A DNA stretch of 64,000 nt, taken from NCBI GenBank assembly GCA_016183425.1, contig JACPEP010000006.1, positions 88,875-152,874 on the forward strand, written 5' to 3'. How positions within the stretch are numbered: position 1 is the first letter of the stretch; each line of letters starts with the position of its first letter. The notes beneath the pieces were generated by a model that saw only the letters and a list, made by a program, of their open reading frames with translations, did not search any database and was not told where the DNA came from. Of the stretch, positions 13,292 to 21,876 are shown one piece after another. The translations under genes and the position numbers were made by a program. This DNA is from Chloroflexota bacterium (GTDB lineage Bacteria; Chloroflexota; Dehalococcoidia; JACPEP01).

Positions 13292-14533
13292 ATGACAATC
13301 CCCACGAAGGAAGCGAGGCCCTCTCCGTACCGATGGGTAGTTATCAGTATGCTGTGGGGGCTGAACGTTATCGAGCCGATAACCCTTCAGTCCCTGGGCG
13401 TCATGCTGCCCGCCATCACCCAGGATCTCTCAGTAACCCCCAGCCAGGCGGGGTTGTTGGGGGCGGCCGCCTGGTTGGGCCGGGCCCTTTTCTCCATTCC
13501 CTTTAGCGCCTGGCTTTCCCGCTACGGTCCGCGCCGCCTGGTGGGGGGCGCTATCCTGACCGCCGTTGTTCTCGTTTTCCTCCAGGGCCTTTCCCCGGCC
13601 TATGGTTTTCTGTTGGCCAGCCGCGTGGCGCTGGTGGTGGTGCTGGTGGCCGAAGTGCCCGCCCGGCCCCTTCTTATTCAGCAGTGGTTTCCCCGCCGTG
13701 AGATCTCCCTGGTCAACGGCATATACTCTGCCCTTAACGGTACCGGGGTGGCCACGGCGGTGGTGTTAACCCCCTTCCTTCTTCTGGCTCTGGGAGGATG
13801 GCGCAACACATTGTATGCCTATGCTGTCCTCTTTGCCCTGGGTGCCCTTTTGTGGATCCTTTTGGCTCGAGAGGGCCGTAGCGAAGAGTATCAGTCGAGA
13901 TACTTGGCCCAAAAAAGAACGCCCCTGATGGCGGTGATGAAGTATCGGGAGCTGTGGCTCCTGGCGTTGGGACAGTTGGGGGGCTATATAGCCTGGTCCG
14001 CCCGTCTCACCTTCTACCCCACCTTCATGCTGGCTGCCTATCAAATGCCCATTACCACCTCCGGGTTCATTCTGGCCATGCACCAGTTGGGCTACATCGT
14101 CGGGTGCTTCATTTCCGGCATCGTAGCCGAGAAGGTGGGCTACCGTCGCCCCCTTATCTATATACCGGGTATCCTCATGCCCCTTTTCTCCTTTGGACTT
14201 CTGGTCACCAGTTGGGTGCCTCTGTTGGCCTTTTTCGCCGTGGCCAGCGGTCTTATCTGGCTTTTTAACCCCATCATCCATACCATTCCCTACGAGCTGC
14301 CGGGGATAAAGCCTCGGGAGGTGGCGGTGGCCTCCGCCTTTGTCGCCACCGCTATGATGGGCGGGGGCAGCCTGGGTCCCTTACTGGCGGGGGTGCTCTA
14401 TCAGGGGCTGGGCTCCCTCTACACCGCCCTGGCCATAACCTGCATCTTTCCGGGCCTCTACTTCGTCACTGGCATGTTGATCCCTGAAACAGGCCGTCGC
14501 GCCCGGGAAGCTACCCGAGTCACCAGTTTATGA
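13292..14533 (+). CDS. MFS transporter (first of three paralogues)
   Basis: 413-aa major facilitator superfamily transporter with twelve predicted helices. It contains the family loop AWLSRYGPRRLVGG between helices 2 and 3, and SLGVMLPAITQDLSVTPSQAGLLG in helix 1-2, mirrored in both following genes. The central loop (EGRSEEYQSRYL) and the conserved YELPGIKPREVAVASAF are also shared. General type resembles the cyanate/nitrate-like MFS group; the substrate cannot be told. Three tandem copies point to local duplication followed by divergence. Confidence 0.9.
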   Translation: MTIPTKEARPSPYRWVVISMLWGLNVIEPITLQSLGVMLPAITQDLSVTPSQAGLLGAAAWLGRALFSIPFSAWLSRYGPRRLVGGAILTAVVLVFLQGLSPAYGFLLASRVALVVVLVAEVPARPLLIQQWFPRREISLVNGIYSALNGTGVATAVVLTPFLLLALGGWRNTLYAYAVLFALGALLWILLAREGRSEEYQSRYLAQKRTPLMAVMKYRELWLLALGQLGGYIAWSARLTFYPTFMLAAYQMPITTSGFILAMHQLGYIVGCFISGIVAEKVGYRRPLIYIPGILMPLFSFGLLVTSWVPLLAFFAVASGLIWLFNPIIHTIPYELPGIKPREVAVASAFVATAMMGGGSLGPLLAGVLYQGLGSLYTALAITCIFPGLYFVTGMLIPETGRRAREATRVTSL

Positions 14534-14540
14534 ATATGGG

Positions 14541-15776
14541 TTGAGAGTGATGGGATCCGGAGAGGGAATGAGATACCGCTGGGTTATAGGGGCCCTCTTT
14601 TTTGGTGCCATTTACGGTACCATGCTCTTTTCCTACTCTTTGGGCATGATGTTGCCGGAGATGACCAAAGAGTTGGGTCTGACTCCCCTTCAAGTGGGTT
14701 GGCTGGGCTCGGCGGCCTGGCTCATTAGTGCCGCTTTGTCAATACCTCTGGGTGTCTGGCTTTCTGGCTACAGCCCAAAAAGGCTGATGGCCTTGGCTCT
14801 TTTCATCGGTGGCCTGAGCCTATTACTCCAGGGATGGGCGCGAAACTTCGTCACTCTTCTGGTTGGCCGCCTGGCTATGTCCGCCGTTCTGGTTGCCCGC
14901 TCGCCCAGCCAGACCCTCCTCATACAGCAGTGGTTTCCCCGTCAGGAAATACCCTTCGTTAACGGGCTCAACAGCGCCTTCAGCGGCACGGGCGTTATTA
15001 CGGCCCTGGCCCTGACCCCTTTGCTCCTCATTCTTTTCTCCGGCTGGAGAAGCATCTTTTTCGCCACCGCCCTCATTTTCTTCCTTCTGGCTCTGGCGTG
15101 GCTCGTTTTCGGCCGAGAGCGAATCACCCCGGAATATCGGGCCCGCCTCGCTTCCCAGGAGCGCAGCCCGATCGCTGCCCCCTTGAGGTACAAAGAGCTG
15201 TGGATTCTGGGACTGGGGGAGGTGGGGTGCTTCGCTACCTGGACAGGACGTATAGTCTTCTGGCCCATCTATGCCCTAGAAAGCTACGCCATGCCGTTGC
15301 CTCTCATCGGCATTATTATGGCCATCCACGAGGTTGGCTATATCCTCAGCGCCCTGGTCTCCGGGTACCTATCCAGCCGGCTGAGGCAGCGCCGTATTTT
15401 CGTTTGGGCGCCGGGGATAGCGATGCCCTTCCTCGCCTTCAGCCTCCTTATCACCGATTCCGTGCCCCTTTTGATCCTGCTATCCTTCCTTAATGGGTTC
15501 ACCTGGACCTTTCAACCCATTGTGTATACGGTGCCCTTCGATCTGCCGGGAGTAAAGCCGCGAGAGGTGGCGGTGGCCACCGCCTTCCTTTCCACCTTTA
15601 TGACAGTGGGCTCGGCTTTGGGGCCCCTCATGATAGGTGCTATCTACCAGGGGACGGGGTCTCTCTTTATGGCTCTCGCCATAAGCTGCATCCCTCCTTT
15701 GGGGATGGCCCTGGCCGCGCCATCGGTGCCGGAGGCGCGTCCCCGTCCCGTGGCGGAGGGGGGGCTGGTTCCATGA
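14541..15776 (+). CDS. MFS transporter (second paralogue)
   Basis: 411-aa MFS transporter, eight bases after the previous gene. The longest frame begins at TTG 14541; ATGs at 14550 and 14568 are alternatives, the last preceded by GGAGAGG. Diagnostic stretches shared with its neighbours are LGMMLPEMTKELGLTPLQVG, WLSGYSPKRLM and the FDLPGVKPREVAVATAFLS loop. Twelve helices are expected. It ends in an ATGA overlap with the third copy, so the three are one operon. Confidence 0.9.
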   Translation: MRVMGSGEGMRYRWVIGALFFGAIYGTMLFSYSLGMMLPEMTKELGLTPLQVGWLGSAAWLISAALSIPLGVWLSGYSPKRLMALALFIGGLSLLLQGWARNFVTLLVGRLAMSAVLVARSPSQTLLIQQWFPRQEIPFVNGLNSAFSGTGVITALALTPLLLILFSGWRSIFFATALIFFLLALAWLVFGRERITPEYRARLASQERSPIAAPLRYKELWILGLGEVGCFATWTGRIVFWPIYALESYAMPLPLIGIIMAIHEVGYILSALVSGYLSSRLRQRRIFVWAPGIAMPFLAFSLLITDSVPLLILLSFLNGFTWTFQPIVYTVPFDLPGVKPREVAVATAFLSTFMTVGSALGPLMIGAIYQGTGSLFMALAISCIPPLGMALAAPSVPEARPRPVAEGGLVP

Positions 15777-17026
15777 GCCGGAAAGCCGCCATCCAAATTC
15801 GAGAAGCCCCGTCAAAGGCGTCTCCCTACCGTTGGGTGGTTCTGGCGGCCTTCTGTGCCGTGGACCTAGCCACCATGCTATCCTCCCAGTCCATGGGGGT
15901 GATGCTCCCCGCTATGAAGGTAGACCTATCCCTTTCCCCCTTCCAGATGGGGTTGCTCGGTGCCTCCTCTTGGATGGGTACCTTCCTCTTTGCCATTCTC
16001 TTTGGCGCAGGGCTGTCTCGCTACAGTCCCAAGAAGGTTACCTTCTTCACCGCCATCAGCGGCAGTATCTTGGCCTTTTTTCAAGGAATGGCCCAAAGCT
16101 TCCTGGGACTTTTCATCCCCCGCTTCGGGGCCGTCGTCGCCTCGGTGGGTCGTATGTCCGCCCGCACCATCATAATCCAGCAATGGTTTCCGCTGCATCA
16201 GGTGGTATTGGCCACCGGCATTAACTCAGCCACCAGTGGCATTGCCTTAGCTATAGCCACCGGGTTGACACCATTCCTCCTCATTGCCTTGGGAGGGTGG
16301 CGGAGTACTTTTTATCTCTACAGTCTGCTTCTGCTCGTGATGAGCGGTGTGTGGCTGGTGGTGGGCCGCCAGAGGGTCACTCCCAGCTTTCAGCAAGGCC
16401 TTACCTCCCAGCAAGATAGTCCTTTGAGAATTATCTGGCGACACAAGATGCTTTGGCTGCTGGGCTTAGGCTCTATGGGATGCAACCTGGGCTGGGGAGC
16501 GCGCATGGTTTTCTGGCCTACCTACATGCTGGAGGCCTATAGAATGCCGGTCACCATCTCCGGACTCATGTGGAGCGTCCACGAGGTAGGCTACATACTG
16601 GGCAGTGTGGGCGCGGGCTGGATAGCCAATCGGGTAAAGGTGCGCAACCCCCTCATCTGGCTGCCGGGGTTTTTCATCCTTCTCTTCGCCCTGGGGATGC
16701 TCTCCACCGGCAACGTGCTTTTATTGGCCCTTTTTACCTTTAGCGGTGGCTTCTCGTGGTTTTTCAACCCTATTATCCATAGCATGCCCTATGAGTTGCC
16801 GGGCGCCAAGCCCCAGGAGGTGGCGGTGGCGGTGGCGTTCTTGAGAACGATGACTACCTTTGGCTCCACCATCGGCCCCATCCTGGCCGGGCTCCTGTAT
16901 CAGACCACCGGCTCTCTCTACTGGGCGCTGGTGATTACCAGCTTGTCTCCGATACTGACGGTAATAGCTGGCCTCATTATGCCCGAGCGGGAGCCCCGGC
17001 AGAGGGAGGGAATGGGCCACCTTTAA
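15773..17026 (+). CDS. MFS transporter (third paralogue)
   Basis: 417-aa MFS protein overlapping the previous gene by four bases. Shared family signatures include SMGVMLPAMKVDLSLSPFQM, LSRYSPKKVTF and YELPGAKPQEVAVAVAFLR. The three paralogues have clearly diverged, suggesting different substrates or regulation rather than recent gene amplification. The stop TAA overlaps the start of the following small membrane protein by one base. Confidence 0.9.
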   Translation: MSRKAAIQIREAPSKASPYRWVVLAAFCAVDLATMLSSQSMGVMLPAMKVDLSLSPFQMGLLGASSWMGTFLFAILFGAGLSRYSPKKVTFFTAISGSILAFFQGMAQSFLGLFIPRFGAVVASVGRMSARTIIIQQWFPLHQVVLATGINSATSGIALAIATGLTPFLLIALGGWRSTFYLYSLLLLVMSGVWLVVGRQRVTPSFQQGLTSQQDSPLRIIWRHKMLWLLGLGSMGCNLGWGARMVFWPTYMLEAYRMPVTISGLMWSVHEVGYILGSVGAGWIANRVKVRNPLIWLPGFFILLFALGMLSTGNVLLLALFTFSGGFSWFFNPIIHSMPYELPGAKPQEVAVAVAFLRTMTTFGSTIGPILAGLLYQTTGSLYWALVITSLSPILTVIAGLIMPEREPRQREGMGHL

Positions 17027-17921: not shown

Positions 17922-17997
17922 GCGGGAGTAACTCAGTTGGTAGAGTCCCTGCCTTCCAAGCAGGTTGTCGCGGGTTCGAATCCCGTCTCCCGCTCCA
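17922..17997 (+). tRNA. tRNA-Gly (anticodon UCC), CCA encoded
   Basis: A full cloverleaf can be drawn. Acceptor stem GCGGGAG pairs with CTCCCGC, the anticodon stem CCTGC/GCAGG encloses CTTCCAA, giving anticodon TCC, and the T-arm has the standard TTCGAAT loop. The discriminator T is followed by genomic CCA at 17995-17997. tRNA genes are common integration sites, and the signalling locus begins about 400 bases downstream. Confidence 0.97.
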
Positions 17998-18304: not shown

Positions 18305-18333
18305 TTGACAAGGTAACAAAATCGTGATAAACA
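18305..18333 (+). promoter_or_regulatory. Promoter of the ComX/ComQ/ComP-like operon
   Basis: Perfect TTGACA at 18305-18310, a 17-base spacer and TAAACA at 18328-18333 preceded by TG (extended -10 type, TGATAAACA). It sits 58 bases before the peptide gene start. No clear operator palindrome was seen. Confidence 0.7.
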
Positions 18334-18390
18334 TGTGTACTAGATTAAGCTTGCAAGACGCGGGTAAATCAAAAAAAGGAGGAGGGTCAC

Positions 18391-18606
18391 ATGAGTCTAC
18401 AGGCAATAAAACATCTGGTGGCCGGGCTGCACTCTGACAAGGACTTGAAAGACCGCTTTGGGTCAAAACCTGATGAGGTGATGGCTCAGTTCAAGCTGAG
18501 TGCAAAGGAAAGAACCGCCATCAAGCAGGCGCACTTTCGAGTCCAAGCCGACGGCACGCTAGTTCTGAAAGCAGAAGCCGGCACTCTCGATTGGTGGTGG
18601 TCATAG
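18391..18606 (+). CDS. ComX-like pheromone precursor peptide
   Basis: 71-aa peptide with a very strong ribosome binding site (AAAGGAGGAGGG, six to seven bases before ATG). The N-terminal two thirds form a helical leader (IKHLVAGLHSDKDLKDRF, then LSAKERTAIKQAHF). The last residues are LDWWWS: three consecutive tryptophans at 68-70 and a terminal Ser. The immediately following gene is a ComQ-like isoprenyl-diphosphate synthase homologue. ComX of Bacillus is a short precursor whose near-C-terminal Trp is prenylated by ComQ and whose C-terminal fragment is released as pheromone. Order here is precursor-ComQ-receptor, unlike comQ-comX-comP. Assignment is by context and architecture. The fold of the leader also resembles other small precursor/LigA-type leaders. 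Confidence 0.72.
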   Translation: MSLQAIKHLVAGLHSDKDLKDRFGSKPDEVMAQFKLSAKERTAIKQAHFRVQADGTLVLKAEAGTLDWWWS

Positions 18607-18610
18607 GCGC

Positions 18611-19603
18611 CTGGAAGTAGTAGGCTTTGCCAAAGTTGCCACGGAACCGAAAGCCCACCTCAGGGAAGTAAGCGGCGTCGTTTTTCGGGAGATCCAGGTC
18701 ACGCTGGGCCTGGTAAAAGAGAACAAAGGCTTACGGAATATTCTTCTGGAGGCGATTCAGGCCCAGGCAGGGGAATCTCTATCGCTGCGTCGCTCCTTTT
18801 TAACTCTTATCATCTATCAGTTACTGGGGGGGCATCTGGAACGAGGCGTACCGGCGGGGGCGGCCATCGAATTCTTTGCTGCCGCCCTGGATGTGTTTGA
18901 TGACCTTGAGGACCGGGACGCCAAAACGGCCCTATGGCGGAAACACGGACAGGCTCAGGCCCTAAATGCGGCCACGGCTTTGCTTATGCTGGCTTACGGG
19001 GCAGTAGCGCGCTTGAGGCTGAAGGGAGTTGACGACTTCACCATCGCCCGAGCTACTGAAACAATAGCCTCCCTGGGCGCTACCGCCTGTGCCGGTCAGC
19101 ACTACGACCTCGCATGGGAATCAAAGCCCTTTGTCAGCGAAAGCCAATACTTCAAAATGATCGAGATGAAGTCGGGGTCGTTGATGGAGTGCGCCTGCCG
19201 GATGGGTGCCGTCGTGGCAGGAGCCGATGAAAAGACGGTGGATTCTTATGGTCTTTTTGGCCGCAACCTGGGTATGGCCGCCCAGATCATGAACGACACG
19301 GAGTCAACCCAAGACCGACAGTCGGCGAAGAGTGACCTTATCAAGAGGAAAAAGACGTTACCGGTTATCTTTGCCTTCAGCCACGCCGAGCCTGAAGATC
19401 GCAAGTGGTTGACGGATCTTTATGGTCAAGATATCCCCATGGAGCCACGCGAAGAACAACGGGTATCCCAAATATTGCAGCGCTGCGGAGCCATCCACTA
19501 TTCGGTAATTCGGGCCGAGCTCTACAAGCAAAAGGCAATTCAGTCGCTGAAAGCAGTTTCAGACTCTATCAGGCAGACTCTGCAGGCAGTGCTAAGTATT
19601 TGA
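18611..19603 (+). CDS. ComQ-like isoprenyl-diphosphate synthase/pheromone prenyltransferase
   Basis: Reads as an all-helical trans-isoprenyl diphosphate synthase homologue. The first Asp-rich motif DDLED is encoded at 18899-18913 with the context FDDLEDRDAKTALW and LNAATAL. From memory this closely matches Bacillus ComQ (DDLEDxD...ALW...LNAA). GQHYDL, KSGSLMECA and AELYKQKAIQSL continue the match. The second motif is NDTES, not DDxxD, again as expected for ComQ-type rather than chain-elongating enzymes. The conserved region extends upstream of the GTG at 18893 (SFLTLIIYQLLGGHLERGV), so that GTG cannot be the start. Yet there is no ATG, GTG or TTG in frame between 18569 and 18893. I used CTG 18611 as a provisional start; ATT at 18590 is another candidate. 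Confidence 0.8.
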   Translation: MEVVGFAKVATEPKAHLREVSGVVFREIQVTLGLVKENKGLRNILLEAIQAQAGESLSLRRSFLTLIIYQLLGGHLERGVPAGAAIEFFAAALDVFDDLEDRDAKTALWRKHGQAQALNAATALLMLAYGAVARLRLKGVDDFTIARATETIASLGATACAGQHYDLAWESKPFVSESQYFKMIEMKSGSLMECACRMGAVVAGADEKTVDSYGLFGRNLGMAAQIMNDTESTQDRQSAKSDLIKRKKTLPVIFAFSHAEPEDRKWLTDLYGQDIPMEPREEQRVSQILQRCGAIHYSVIRAELYKQKAIQSLKAVSDSIRQTLQAVLSI

Positions 19604-19629
19604 CCCTGGGTAGCTAAAGCAAAGCAATC

Positions 19630-21876
19630 ATGGATGCATACCCTGTTTCTCCCCCTCTTTCTCTGTCCCAGACGGTATGGGAAAAGGTAGCCAGTTGGCT
19701 GCTACTAGCTGTCGGGGGTACTGTTGGCGTCGGCCTCGTTGCTATATTCGTCCTGACCCTCACGACTTCCTACGTTGGCGTTGACCTTGTCTTGCGAAAT
19801 GGTAAGTGGTATGTCGGTCAGCTAAGCGAATCCGGTACCGCCGGTCGCGACGGCATAAGGTCGGGAGACGAGGTCATAGCCGTAAACGGGCTAAGCCCAA
19901 AGGAAGTCAGCGGTGGCTTGGGCTATATCGGCGCATCACGCGTTCGATCCCTGAAAGTCGTGAATGGCGTCGGTGAGGCCAAGGAGACTGCGACAACCAC
20001 CGGTCCGGTCCCTGCAGGAGCGCGGCAAGAGTCTATTGCCATGTTCGTTGTCGGTGCCGCCTTCTGGACGGTGGGGTTCGTTTCTCTGCTCAGGAAGCCG
20101 CAATCACGTATAGCCCTATGGCTTTTCCTAATGAGTCTCAGTGTTGCCGTTGCCCCACTGGTATCCTTGTTACCACTGCGTGGCTGGCTTGAGATACGGC
20201 CCCTGGAAGCCGTGAACGGGTTTCTAGCCCCCTGGCTCATGGTGCGTTTTTTCCTCGAGTTTCCGGCGGAGAAGCGAATCAAACTACTGGGTAAGGACAT
20301 CACGGACCTCGTTTATCTTCCCCCTGTGCTCCTCCTAGTGGTGTATGCATGGGTTGGGTACCAAGATTCGGCGTTCTACACCTGGTTTCGGCCGGTGCTC
20401 CTTTGGAATCTGGCAACGGGTTTCCTCTTGGTGATTGGCTTCATCACCCACAGCTACTTGACTGCCTCCTTCGGCAGGTATAAGCAGCAGATAAAGATCG
20501 TCGCGGTCGCTGCTGCCATTAGCCTCTTGCCTTTTGTTATCCTCGCTGTGTTGCCGAATGCCTTGGGCTTGAGTGGTCTCGTCCCGCCTTATATAAGCGT
20601 TATTGGTCTCGTTCTTTTGCCTCTTTCTCTGGGATATGTGATCCTGGTGAAGAACCTTCTGGACATCGATGTGGTGGTTAGCCAGGTAGTATCTCACAGT
20701 GCGCTGCTGTTGCCTCCGGTCAGTGCCAAAATCCAGCAACTGGTTCAGCGTCGGATGAGCAAGGGTAGATACGATTATCGGGAAGCCGCCTCCAGTCTCG
20801 TCATGGAGCTCTCGTCACAGACGGAGCTTGAGCAAGTCTTGCGAGGGTTTGCTTCAAGCGTCAGACGTTTCTTAGGACTTGATGGGGCCTGCGCCTTCGT
20901 CGTTGACAGAGAGAAGCCTTCGGTAATCGCCGCCGCCTCTGGGATATACGAGGACGACGTGGCTCTAAAACGTCTGGTCATCGGTTGGGCTCGCGCCGTA
21001 AGAGATGACCCCGAGCATCAGTTCCCGAATAAGGCTCCCCCTCAGGCGGGTGTGGCCTTCTTCGTGCCTCTTTTCAGGGGTGAAACCGACGTGGGAATGC
21101 TCATATTGAGCCACAAGCTGCCGCCATTGGGTTACTCGGTGGACGATGTGTATTTTCTGCTCACTATTCAAAACCCAGCGTCGTTGCTCATTCACAATGC
21201 CTTGCTGCTGCACCAGGCGAGGAGGAACGCTATAGAGCTTGAGGCAGTTCAGAAAAGCGTCCAAGAATATGCGACTTCTCTGGAAAGAAGCAAGAAGGAG
21301 GTGGAACAAGCCTTCTTTAACACTGTCCGGACGCTTGTCCTGGCGTTGGAAAGCCGAAATCCCTACACGAAGCAGCACTCCGAGCGGGTTGCCCGGCTCG
21401 CCCAAAGGATCGGGATGGCCCTGGGACTGGCTCCCGAGGATTCGCGCAACCTGGAGATTGCGGGGCTCGTCCACGACATAGGCAAGATAGGGATTCCAGA
21501 TAACGTCTTGCTCAAGCGAGGGCCCCTGGAACATCAGGAGAGAGCAGAGGTGGAACTCCATGCGATTAGGGGCGTAGAGATGCTGCGGTTCTTGGGCTTC
21601 TTGGCCGAGGTTATTCCCCTAGTCGAGCACCACCACGAACGGTATGACGGTACCGGGTACCCCCACGGCTTGAAAGGCGCTGCCATACCCCTGGGAGCGC
21701 GCATTCTGGCGGTCGCCGATGCCTATGACGCGATGACCTCAGAACGCCCTGGGCAGCCCGCCCTCTCGTCAAAAGAGGCGATGGAGAGGCTCAAAGAGGG
21801 TGCGGGAACTCAGTGGGATCCGCAGGTAGTGACGGCATTTCAACGTCTCAACAAGCTGGATAGTGAAGCGACATGA
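19630..21876 (+). CDS. ComP-like membrane receptor with GAF and HD-GYP output
   Basis: 748 aa. Helix 1 (about 22-45) is followed by an extracytoplasmic PDZ domain (about 50-115, with GIRSGDEVIAVNGL). About seven more helices follow to residue 340, ending in LGYVILVKNLLDIDVVVSQ, like the end of the ComP sensor region. Then come a GAF-like domain (about 395-530), a short coiled coil (535-560) and an HD-GYP domain. HD-GYP residues are visible: H583, HDIGKIGIPD (H615/D616), H644, HHH 667-669 and DGTGYP (673-678). HD-GYP domains hydrolyse cyclic-di-GMP. So the input half resembles the pheromone sensor ComP while the histidine kinase half is replaced. The start ATG is 26 bases after the ComQ-like stop and has only a weak ribosome site. 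It converges with the next gene. Confidence 0.85.
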   Translation: MDAYPVSPPLSLSQTVWEKVASWLLLAVGGTVGVGLVAIFVLTLTTSYVGVDLVLRNGKWYVGQLSESGTAGRDGIRSGDEVIAVNGLSPKEVSGGLGYIGASRVRSLKVVNGVGEAKETATTTGPVPAGARQESIAMFVVGAAFWTVGFVSLLRKPQSRIALWLFLMSLSVAVAPLVSLLPLRGWLEIRPLEAVNGFLAPWLMVRFFLEFPAEKRIKLLGKDITDLVYLPPVLLLVVYAWVGYQDSAFYTWFRPVLLWNLATGFLLVIGFITHSYLTASFGRYKQQIKIVAVAAAISLLPFVILAVLPNALGLSGLVPPYISVIGLVLLPLSLGYVILVKNLLDIDVVVSQVVSHSALLLPPVSAKIQQLVQRRMSKGRYDYREAASSLVMELSSQTELEQVLRGFASSVRRFLGLDGACAFVVDREKPSVIAAASGIYEDDVALKRLVIGWARAVRDDPEHQFPNKAPPQAGVAFFVPLFRGETDVGMLILSHKLPPLGYSVDDVYFLLTIQNPASLLIHNALLLHQARRNAIELEAVQKSVQEYATSLERSKKEVEQAFFNTVRTLVLALESRNPYTKQHSERVARLAQRIGMALGLAPEDSRNLEIAGLVHDIGKIGIPDNVLLKRGPLEHQERAEVELHAIRGVEMLRFLGFLAEVIPLVEHHHERYDGTGYPHGLKGAAIPLGARILAVADAYDAMTSERPGQPALSSKEAMERLKEGAGTQWDPQVVTAFQRLNKLDSEAT

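Follow-up and report, generated by a model that had tools for sequence, protein, structure and literature searches.

A ComQXP-like operon in a genome of the Chloroflexota combines an NHLP-like precursor with an HD-GYP receptor

Within a 64,000-nucleotide stretch of a Chloroflexota genome (contig JACPEP010000006.1; hereafter the window), whose host belongs to the class Dehalococcoidia, three genes lie in tandem on the plus strand, which is the strand of all operon features given below. The first encodes a precursor peptide of 71 aa (18391..18606), the second a ComQ-like protein predicted to be a peptide tryptophan (Trp) prenyltransferase (18611..19603), and the third a ComP-like receptor of 748 aa with a PDZ domain and multiple transmembrane (TM) segments (19630..21876). 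The original prediction for this stretch, made from its letters alone, had placed a precursor, a ComQ-like enzyme and a PDZ/multi-helix receptor in this order, and our reading of the open reading frames (ORFs) agrees. A profile of 15 related precursors, built without the row from the window, gave a single match among the 1247 window frames of at least 30 aa, and this match was the precursor itself (E 2.9e-13). We refer to the gene order as X-Q-P, after ComX, ComQ and ComP, and cite loci, genomes and database proteins by handles beginning with L, G and P, respectively.

Relatives of the operon were collected by several routes. Motif patterns taken from the enzyme alignment and searched for in 84,980 species genomes returned 51 loci: 35 from Bacillales genera, one ordinary synthase (L059) and 15 further relatives, and in all 15 of the latter a small ORF with a C-terminal Trp adjoins the enzyme gene. 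The enzyme was also compared with 393 class genomes, and the precursor alignment with these and with 400 genomes from the phylum. Twenty-five loci were read (the window, L009-L020, L024, L029, L031, L090-L092, L094 with L093, L101, L103, L113, L121 and L130), counting L094 and L093, two contigs of one genome, as one locus. The precursor adjoins the enzyme in every one of them; in L015 and L019 the contig starts inside the precursor ORF. L020 is labelled Firmicutes, and L015, a 3.1-kb contig labelled Syntrophaceae, falls inside the Chloroflexota clade and may be a binning error. Outside the class, the phylum search found precursor and enzyme together in G467, G429 and G577 (by sequence the genome of L024), with a receptor gene following the enzyme in G467 and G429. 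Four of the genomes that carry the operon (G082, G188, G199 and G210) are single contigs, and its presence in them is therefore not a binning error. A scan of viral contigs yielded no relative, and a viral or phage origin was set aside.

The precursor is a real, conserved gene whose relatives are under purifying selection. Its ATG is preceded by a strong Shine-Dalgarno sequence, AGGAGGAGGG (18377..18386), and a similar purine stretch lies 5′ of the precursor in the 14 other loci inspected. The alignment behind its profile (A3) holds 16 of the 25 loci, without the two contig-cut ones, L029, L020 and the five found later. Leave-one-out profiles recovered all 16 rows, and the profile also found the unaligned loci L101, L103, L113, L121 and L130; it missed L029, L020 and both contig-cut loci, and none of 22 control loci with ordinary synthases was matched at E ≤ 1. 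In six precursor pairs the nonsynonymous rate (dN) is 0.03-0.22 against a synonymous rate (dS) of 0.21-1.33, dS being saturated in three further pairs. All 25 loci have a Trp within the last six residues of the precursor, at the penultimate position in 20, at the terminal one in 1 and at the fifth or sixth from the end in 4 (the count leaves out one of the two L019 frames, which is in a different frame), and in the window precursor, which ends in TLDWWWS, the second, third and fourth residues from the end are all Trp. Conservation of the small gene, on which the original prediction had made its case depend, is thus borne out. A protein-database search with the precursor matched nothing except the precursor itself, and the breadth described here therefore came from the genome searches.

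The precursors look like NHLP-type precursors of ribosomally synthesized and post-translationally modified peptides (RiPPs), the kind to which PalX of Paenibacillus alvei belongs (PMC10853753). NF038399, the NCBIfam model of the Os1348 NHLP leader, matches all 16 aligned precursors at E ≤ 0.5 (best 5.6e-12), and the window precursor provides the weakest evidence here, at E 0.057 and under the cut-off. Leaders of the NHLP type are typical of RiPPs, which speaks for another function: the product could be a prenylated antibiotic or membrane-active peptide, and the receptor a self-sensing regulator or an immunity sensor. In the comparable PalP-PalX-PalQ cluster, PalX is treated as a RiPP, and the sections consulted state no signalling role (PMC10853753); a review describes prenylated antimicrobial peptides made with PalQ (PMC13290415). 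Even so, we regard an antibiotic function as unlikely, since no transporter, immunity or further maturation gene lies between the operon genes or directly downstream, the transporter-like ORFs upstream are set apart by a 255-aa ORF and a tRNA, and the sensor is homologous to ComP and nearly always accompanies the precursor. In other Chloroflexota we observed further NHLP-type small ORFs with Trp-rich tails (PFWLTGGL in L106:1492-2563, RPAWLFWP in L107 on the reverse strand, and RPGWFYWPS in L109), each upstream of a membrane-protein frame that Pfam assigns to DUF2085 in L106 and L107; these are perhaps another Trp-peptide system, one without ComQ.

The enzyme is ComQ-related, and its sequence predicts that it prenylates Trp. 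It matches PF00348 (E 6e-33), and its AlphaFold2 model (mean predicted local distance difference test score, pLDDT, 91.5) has the isoprenoid synthase fold. The original claim that it resembles ComQ holds up in phylogeny, and clustering with ordinary polyprenyl synthases, named there as a refuting outcome, was not seen. One split with SH-aLRT 100, in a 95-row tree made by a quick method and rooted at its midpoint (L020 sits on a long branch, and the five later loci are outside the tree), divides 61 rows from 34 and sets the X-Q loci and ComQ apart from the synthases of the class. The ComQ side holds 20 X-Q loci, 19 ComQ proteins drawn from the 35 Bacillales loci, 19 near homologues of metagenomic origin and 3 other proteins; the opposite side holds 12 class synthases and 22 other proteins.

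Motif counts, made on an alignment separate from that of the tree and without L020, point the same way. The first aspartate-rich motif (FARM), DDLED at residues 97-101 (18899..18913), has D97, D98, E100 and D101 invariant in 26 aligned sequences; the X-Q rows read DDxxD in 18 of 19 cases and DExxD in L093. At residues 228-232 (19292..19306) stands NDTES, a pseudo-form of the second aspartate-rich motif (SARM) as in ComQ, and this motif starts with N in 18/18 covered X-Q rows, 19/19 near homologues and 25/25 Bacillales ComQ. The Lys of the GKxxRP column, which serves in binding isopentenyl diphosphate (IPP), is present in 22/22 class synthases and 22/22 far hits but in none of the 19 X-Q loci, the window and L093 enzymes having a gap at this column. 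Four columns after the FARM are lost in all X-Q loci (19/19), near homologues (19/19) and ComQ proteins (25/25), as against 0/44 synthases, and the Arg-containing loop of chain-elongating synthases is absent from the window enzyme. The Gln before the second motif occurs in every covered row of every group and therefore does not discriminate. An LYKQK motif that the original prediction had listed as ComQ-like is present in the window enzyme but varies in relatives (LYKHK, LFRQK, LYRGK). A review states, on the basis of mutagenesis, that ComQ requires NDxxx or GDxxx in order to prenylate Trp and that exchanging the N for D drastically reduces activity; it also reports that one ComQ accepts Trp second to fourth from the end (PMC5331326). 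The window combines NDTES with Trp residues at exactly these positions.

These results also bear on whether the enzyme might be an ordinary short-chain polyprenyl diphosphate synthase that by chance has a small ORF on one side and a signalling gene on the other. Its best Pfam and NCBIfam matches are indeed generic synthases, and it shares the fold of geranylgeranyl diphosphate synthase, with synthases and the Trp prenyltransferase Ord1 among the best structure matches of its model. However, real ComQ draws the same generic NCBIfam matches, the tree split is strong, and the enzyme has NDxxx and is without the GKxxRP Lys and the Arg-containing loop. Moreover, two of the three polyprenyl-synthase-type genes in its own genome lie outside the operon, and the adjacent precursor recurs in 25/25 loci. 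A chance placement is thus very improbable, and identity as an ordinary polyprenyl synthase was rejected on the tree and the motif counts. The top NCBIfam match of the enzyme, a family 2 encapsulin cargo transferase, was set aside as not diagnostic: the ComQ proteins of L030 and L025 have the same top match, and all of these matches are far under the cut-off.

The receptor comprises TM1, a PDZ domain, about 7-8 further TM segments, a GAF domain and an HD-GYP domain, as judged from Pfam, hydropathy, hhalign and a model with pLDDT 78. By profile comparison its sensor is homologous to ComP (hhalign 99.9%, E 3e-34, 338 columns). The PDZ domain, predicted to be extracytoplasmic, lies between TM1 and TM2 at about residues 47-121 (19768..19992) and is indicated by PF00595 and by strands in the model. 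At the other end, residues 571-733 (21340..21828) form the HD-GYP output domain, with HDIGK and GYP motifs and a PF13487 match of E 3e-43; motifs and profile together mark the protein as a predicted HD-GYP phosphodiesterase for cyclic di-GMP (c-di-GMP), and its output is likely hydrolysis of this nucleotide. The original description of a ComP-like receptor is right for the sensor and makes no mention of the output, which is GAF plus HD-GYP in place of the HisKA_3 and HATPase kinase modules of ComP. A structure search with the receptor model returned nothing at E ≤ 0.001; the best matches were generic 7TM receptors with low TM-scores and PDZ proteases, and are of little help.

Related sensors are joined to several kinds of output. 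HD-GYP domains occur in the window, L011, L093 and the database proteins P0049-P0051, HisKA kinases in L009, L010, L012, L014, L015 and L092, and hybrid kinases with a receiver in L016-L019, L090 and L091, while among the receptors scanned HisKA_3 outputs were found only in L029 and L020. In L029, from the Herpetosiphonaceae, a LuxR-type regulator lies 3′ of the kinase. The six HD-GYP rows fall on one side of a poorly supported branch (28/61) of the sensor tree, which allows, but does not show, a single swap to HD-GYP. A GGDEF gene is found one gene beyond the HD-GYP receptor in L093, and the genome of the window encodes one GGDEF protein, four HD_5 (HD-GYP-type) matches and one sensor of this kind. 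We also observed a receiver-domain (CheY-like) protein upstream of the precursor in L009, L011, L014, L016, L017, L018 and L031 (by eye; checked with Pfam for L016), which may be the partner regulator of those receptors that are kinases.

Precursor and sensor tend to occur in the same genomes. At E ≤ 1e-4 the precursor model matched 32 of the 393 class genomes, of which 13 had a nearly full-length match with the enzyme beside it (the contig ends inside the enzyme in G039, an IS3-like element interrupts the enzyme in G188, and the contigs are split in G031). The sensor at E ≤ 1e-15 matched 20 genomes, 13 of them at E ≤ 1e-111 and the other seven between 1e-19 and 1e-28. These two sets of 13 share 12 genomes, with the sensor alone in G280, the precursor alone in G039 and neither in 379 (Fisher p 7e-21, not corrected for kinship). 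In the X-Q-P locus of the single-contig genome G188 (L158:5562-7369), the enzyme frame is shortened, and transposase-like ORFs, IS3-like by eye, separate it from the receptor.

We propose, with a probability of roughly 0.65, that the precursor and the ComQ-related enzyme make a prenylated lipopeptide, which is sensed by a ComP-related receptor that hydrolyses c-di-GMP. The enzyme would link one of the C-terminal Trp residues to a lipid of the geranyl or farnesyl type. In the first step the NHLP-like leader would bring the precursor to the enzyme. There the FARM would bind a prenyl diphosphate, and Gln225 and the NDxxx pseudo-motif would hold the indole in place of IPP. A protease would then remove the leader, and the C-terminal lipopeptide would be exported and recognised outside the cell by the TM bundle and the PDZ domain that TM1 and TM2 flank. 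The signal would pass through GAF to HD-GYP and change c-di-GMP. With receptor output going directly to c-di-GMP, no ComA-like regulator would be needed.

Several observations weigh against this proposal. Pfam ComX (PF05952) matches none of the 16 aligned precursors, the window included, as against 17/17 Bacillales controls; the profile comparison of precursor and ComX that the original prediction had called for therefore came out negative, and membership in Pfam ComX is ruled out. The similarity between the precursor and ComX profiles is weak (hhalign 40.5%, E 2.9e-4, 44 columns) and at most suggestive, and in the 35 Bacillales loci the precursor profile gives one weak match (E 0.0013), on the other strand and away from comX. 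The precursors of L029 and L020 are assigned from position and Trp only. For the enzyme, an N also begins the second motif in 4/22 class synthases (0/22 far hits), so that NDxxx alone is not diagnostic, and the GKxxRP Lys is retained in 2/19 near homologues and 1/25 ComQ. For the receptor, the PF00595 match in the window (E 0.025) is below the Pfam cut-off, with 8.7e-6 in the relative L011; Pfam detects a PDZ domain (E ≤ 0.05) in 12 of the 17 Chloroflexota-type receptors scanned, not in L017, L018, L020, L090 and L093, and in two of three ComP proteins, at the same place in L030 and L046 and undetected in L025. G280 has a strong kinase-type sensor (L159:3525-5930), but neither precursor nor enzyme occurs in the preceding 3.5 kb; the sensor is either an orphan receptor or the remnant of a lost pair.

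The start of the enzyme gene belongs with these points. Its frame is open from 18569 to 19603, with no ATG, GTG or TTG before the GTG at 18893, two codons before the active-site motif; if only these start codons are allowed, the enzyme is shortened to 236 aa. The close homologues P0003 and P0005 begin, in the alignment, two codons after a CTG at 18611, four bases 3′ of the precursor stop. Because of this alignment and spacing, the enzyme probably starts at CTG 18611, with translation re-initiating there. Operons of this kind get hidden by start-codon rules.

Finally, none of the three operon genes encodes an exporter or a leader peptidase, and the missing exporter lends some weight to a different role, in which the prenylated peptide acts in the producing cell or its envelope and the receptor gauges isoprenoid or membrane state instead of cell density. 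A PDZ domain with a TM bundle could report membrane-embedded ligands, and the donor would be the cell's own prenyl diphosphates. However, ComX is also secreted, with no dedicated exporter gene known in its operon. In addition, TM1 and TM2 flank the PDZ domain, and the loop between them is extracellular in a ComP model (PMC9620489). We therefore find such a cell-internal role improbable, and prefer the reading as an exported lipopeptide signal.

How far the operon resembles known systems can be stated gene by gene. With ComQXPA of Bacillus and other Firmicutes it shares an enzyme with FARM and NDxxx pseudo-SARM, a small precursor with a near-C-terminal Trp, a TM1-PDZ-multi-TM sensor and the adjacency of the genes. 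It differs in phylum, in order (X-Q-P versus Q-X-P-A), in having no ComA after the receptor in the window, in an NHLP/Os1348-like precursor in place of PF05952, and in the HD-GYP output. The original view of a ComQXP-like system outside the Firmicutes can thus be kept for the scheme, as the sequence suggests it, but not as strict membership, given the missing PF05952, the order, the lack of ComA and HD-GYP. A cell-cell signal that ends in an HD-GYP c-di-GMP phosphodiesterase is also familiar from the diffusible signal factor (DSF) signalling of RpfC/RpfG, in which the signal is a fatty acid and the kinase and regulator are separate, whereas the window receptor unites sensor and HD-GYP in a single protein and its predicted signal is a lipopeptide.

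The PalP-PalX-PalQ cluster (PMC10853753) likewise has an NHLP-type leader with a C-terminal Trp, a Trp prenyltransferase of the isoprene-synthase fold and a sensor kinase gene, but PalP is a histidine kinase and the window receptor an HD-GYP protein. PalQ is reported as a cluster distinct from ComQ and as needing Trp at the very C-terminus (PMC10853753), whereas the Trp residues of the window precursor are second to fourth from the end, with Trp second in 20/25 loci. Ord1 (PDB 9v4g-9v4j), of the same superfamily, matches the fold of the enzyme model (TM-score 0.79 by query, 20% identity); unlike the enzyme of the window, it is described in a review as farnesylating free tryptophan, not peptide-linked (PMC13290415).

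Around the operon, the nearest feature found upstream is a tRNA-Gly(TCC) (17922..17997, plus strand), and the gene 3′ of the receptor encodes a convergent cupin protein. The promoter of the original prediction is only partly recognisable: a possible -35 element, TTGACA, is present at 18305..18310 (plus strand), but the -10 at 17-nt spacing is poor (3/6 matches by eye), a promoter scan reports nothing there, and support for a promoter is weak. Farther upstream, at 13292-17026, stand three tandem ORFs of ~410 aa each that appear by eye to be transporter-like, of the major facilitator superfamily.

A 2014 census reports ComQXPA-like loci in some Clostridiales and none outside Firmicutes (PMC4008528), and a 2022 study says that chloroflexi contain a ComP-ComA pair, by KEGG assignment (PMC8895600). 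Within the literature searched, subscription papers being outside its reach, we found no account of the whole system in Chloroflexota, and no match for ComQ with Dehalogenimonas or for ComP with HD-GYP as a pheromone receptor. The sequence comparisons above give good support to a ComQXP-like operon in Chloroflexota whose precursor is NHLP-like and whose receptor ends in HD-GYP, and the signalling scheme of Bacillus and its relatives probably extends, with a changed output, to another phylum. A broader proposition is tentative, a little short of even odds: that Chloroflexota use a prenyl-Trp pheromone whose receptor is itself a c-di-GMP phosphodiesterase working without a phosphorelay, that one sensor has been joined to several outputs, that ComX arose from an NHLP-type RiPP precursor, and that this signalling is older and wider than the Firmicutes. 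The presence of the three parts in over a dozen Chloroflexota genomes, single-contig ones among them, would give this phylum a peptide quorum-sensing system and would tie a peptide pheromone directly to c-di-GMP. It would also supply new Trp prenyltransferases with different acceptor rules and an outgroup for studying the evolution of ComX, ComQ and ComP.

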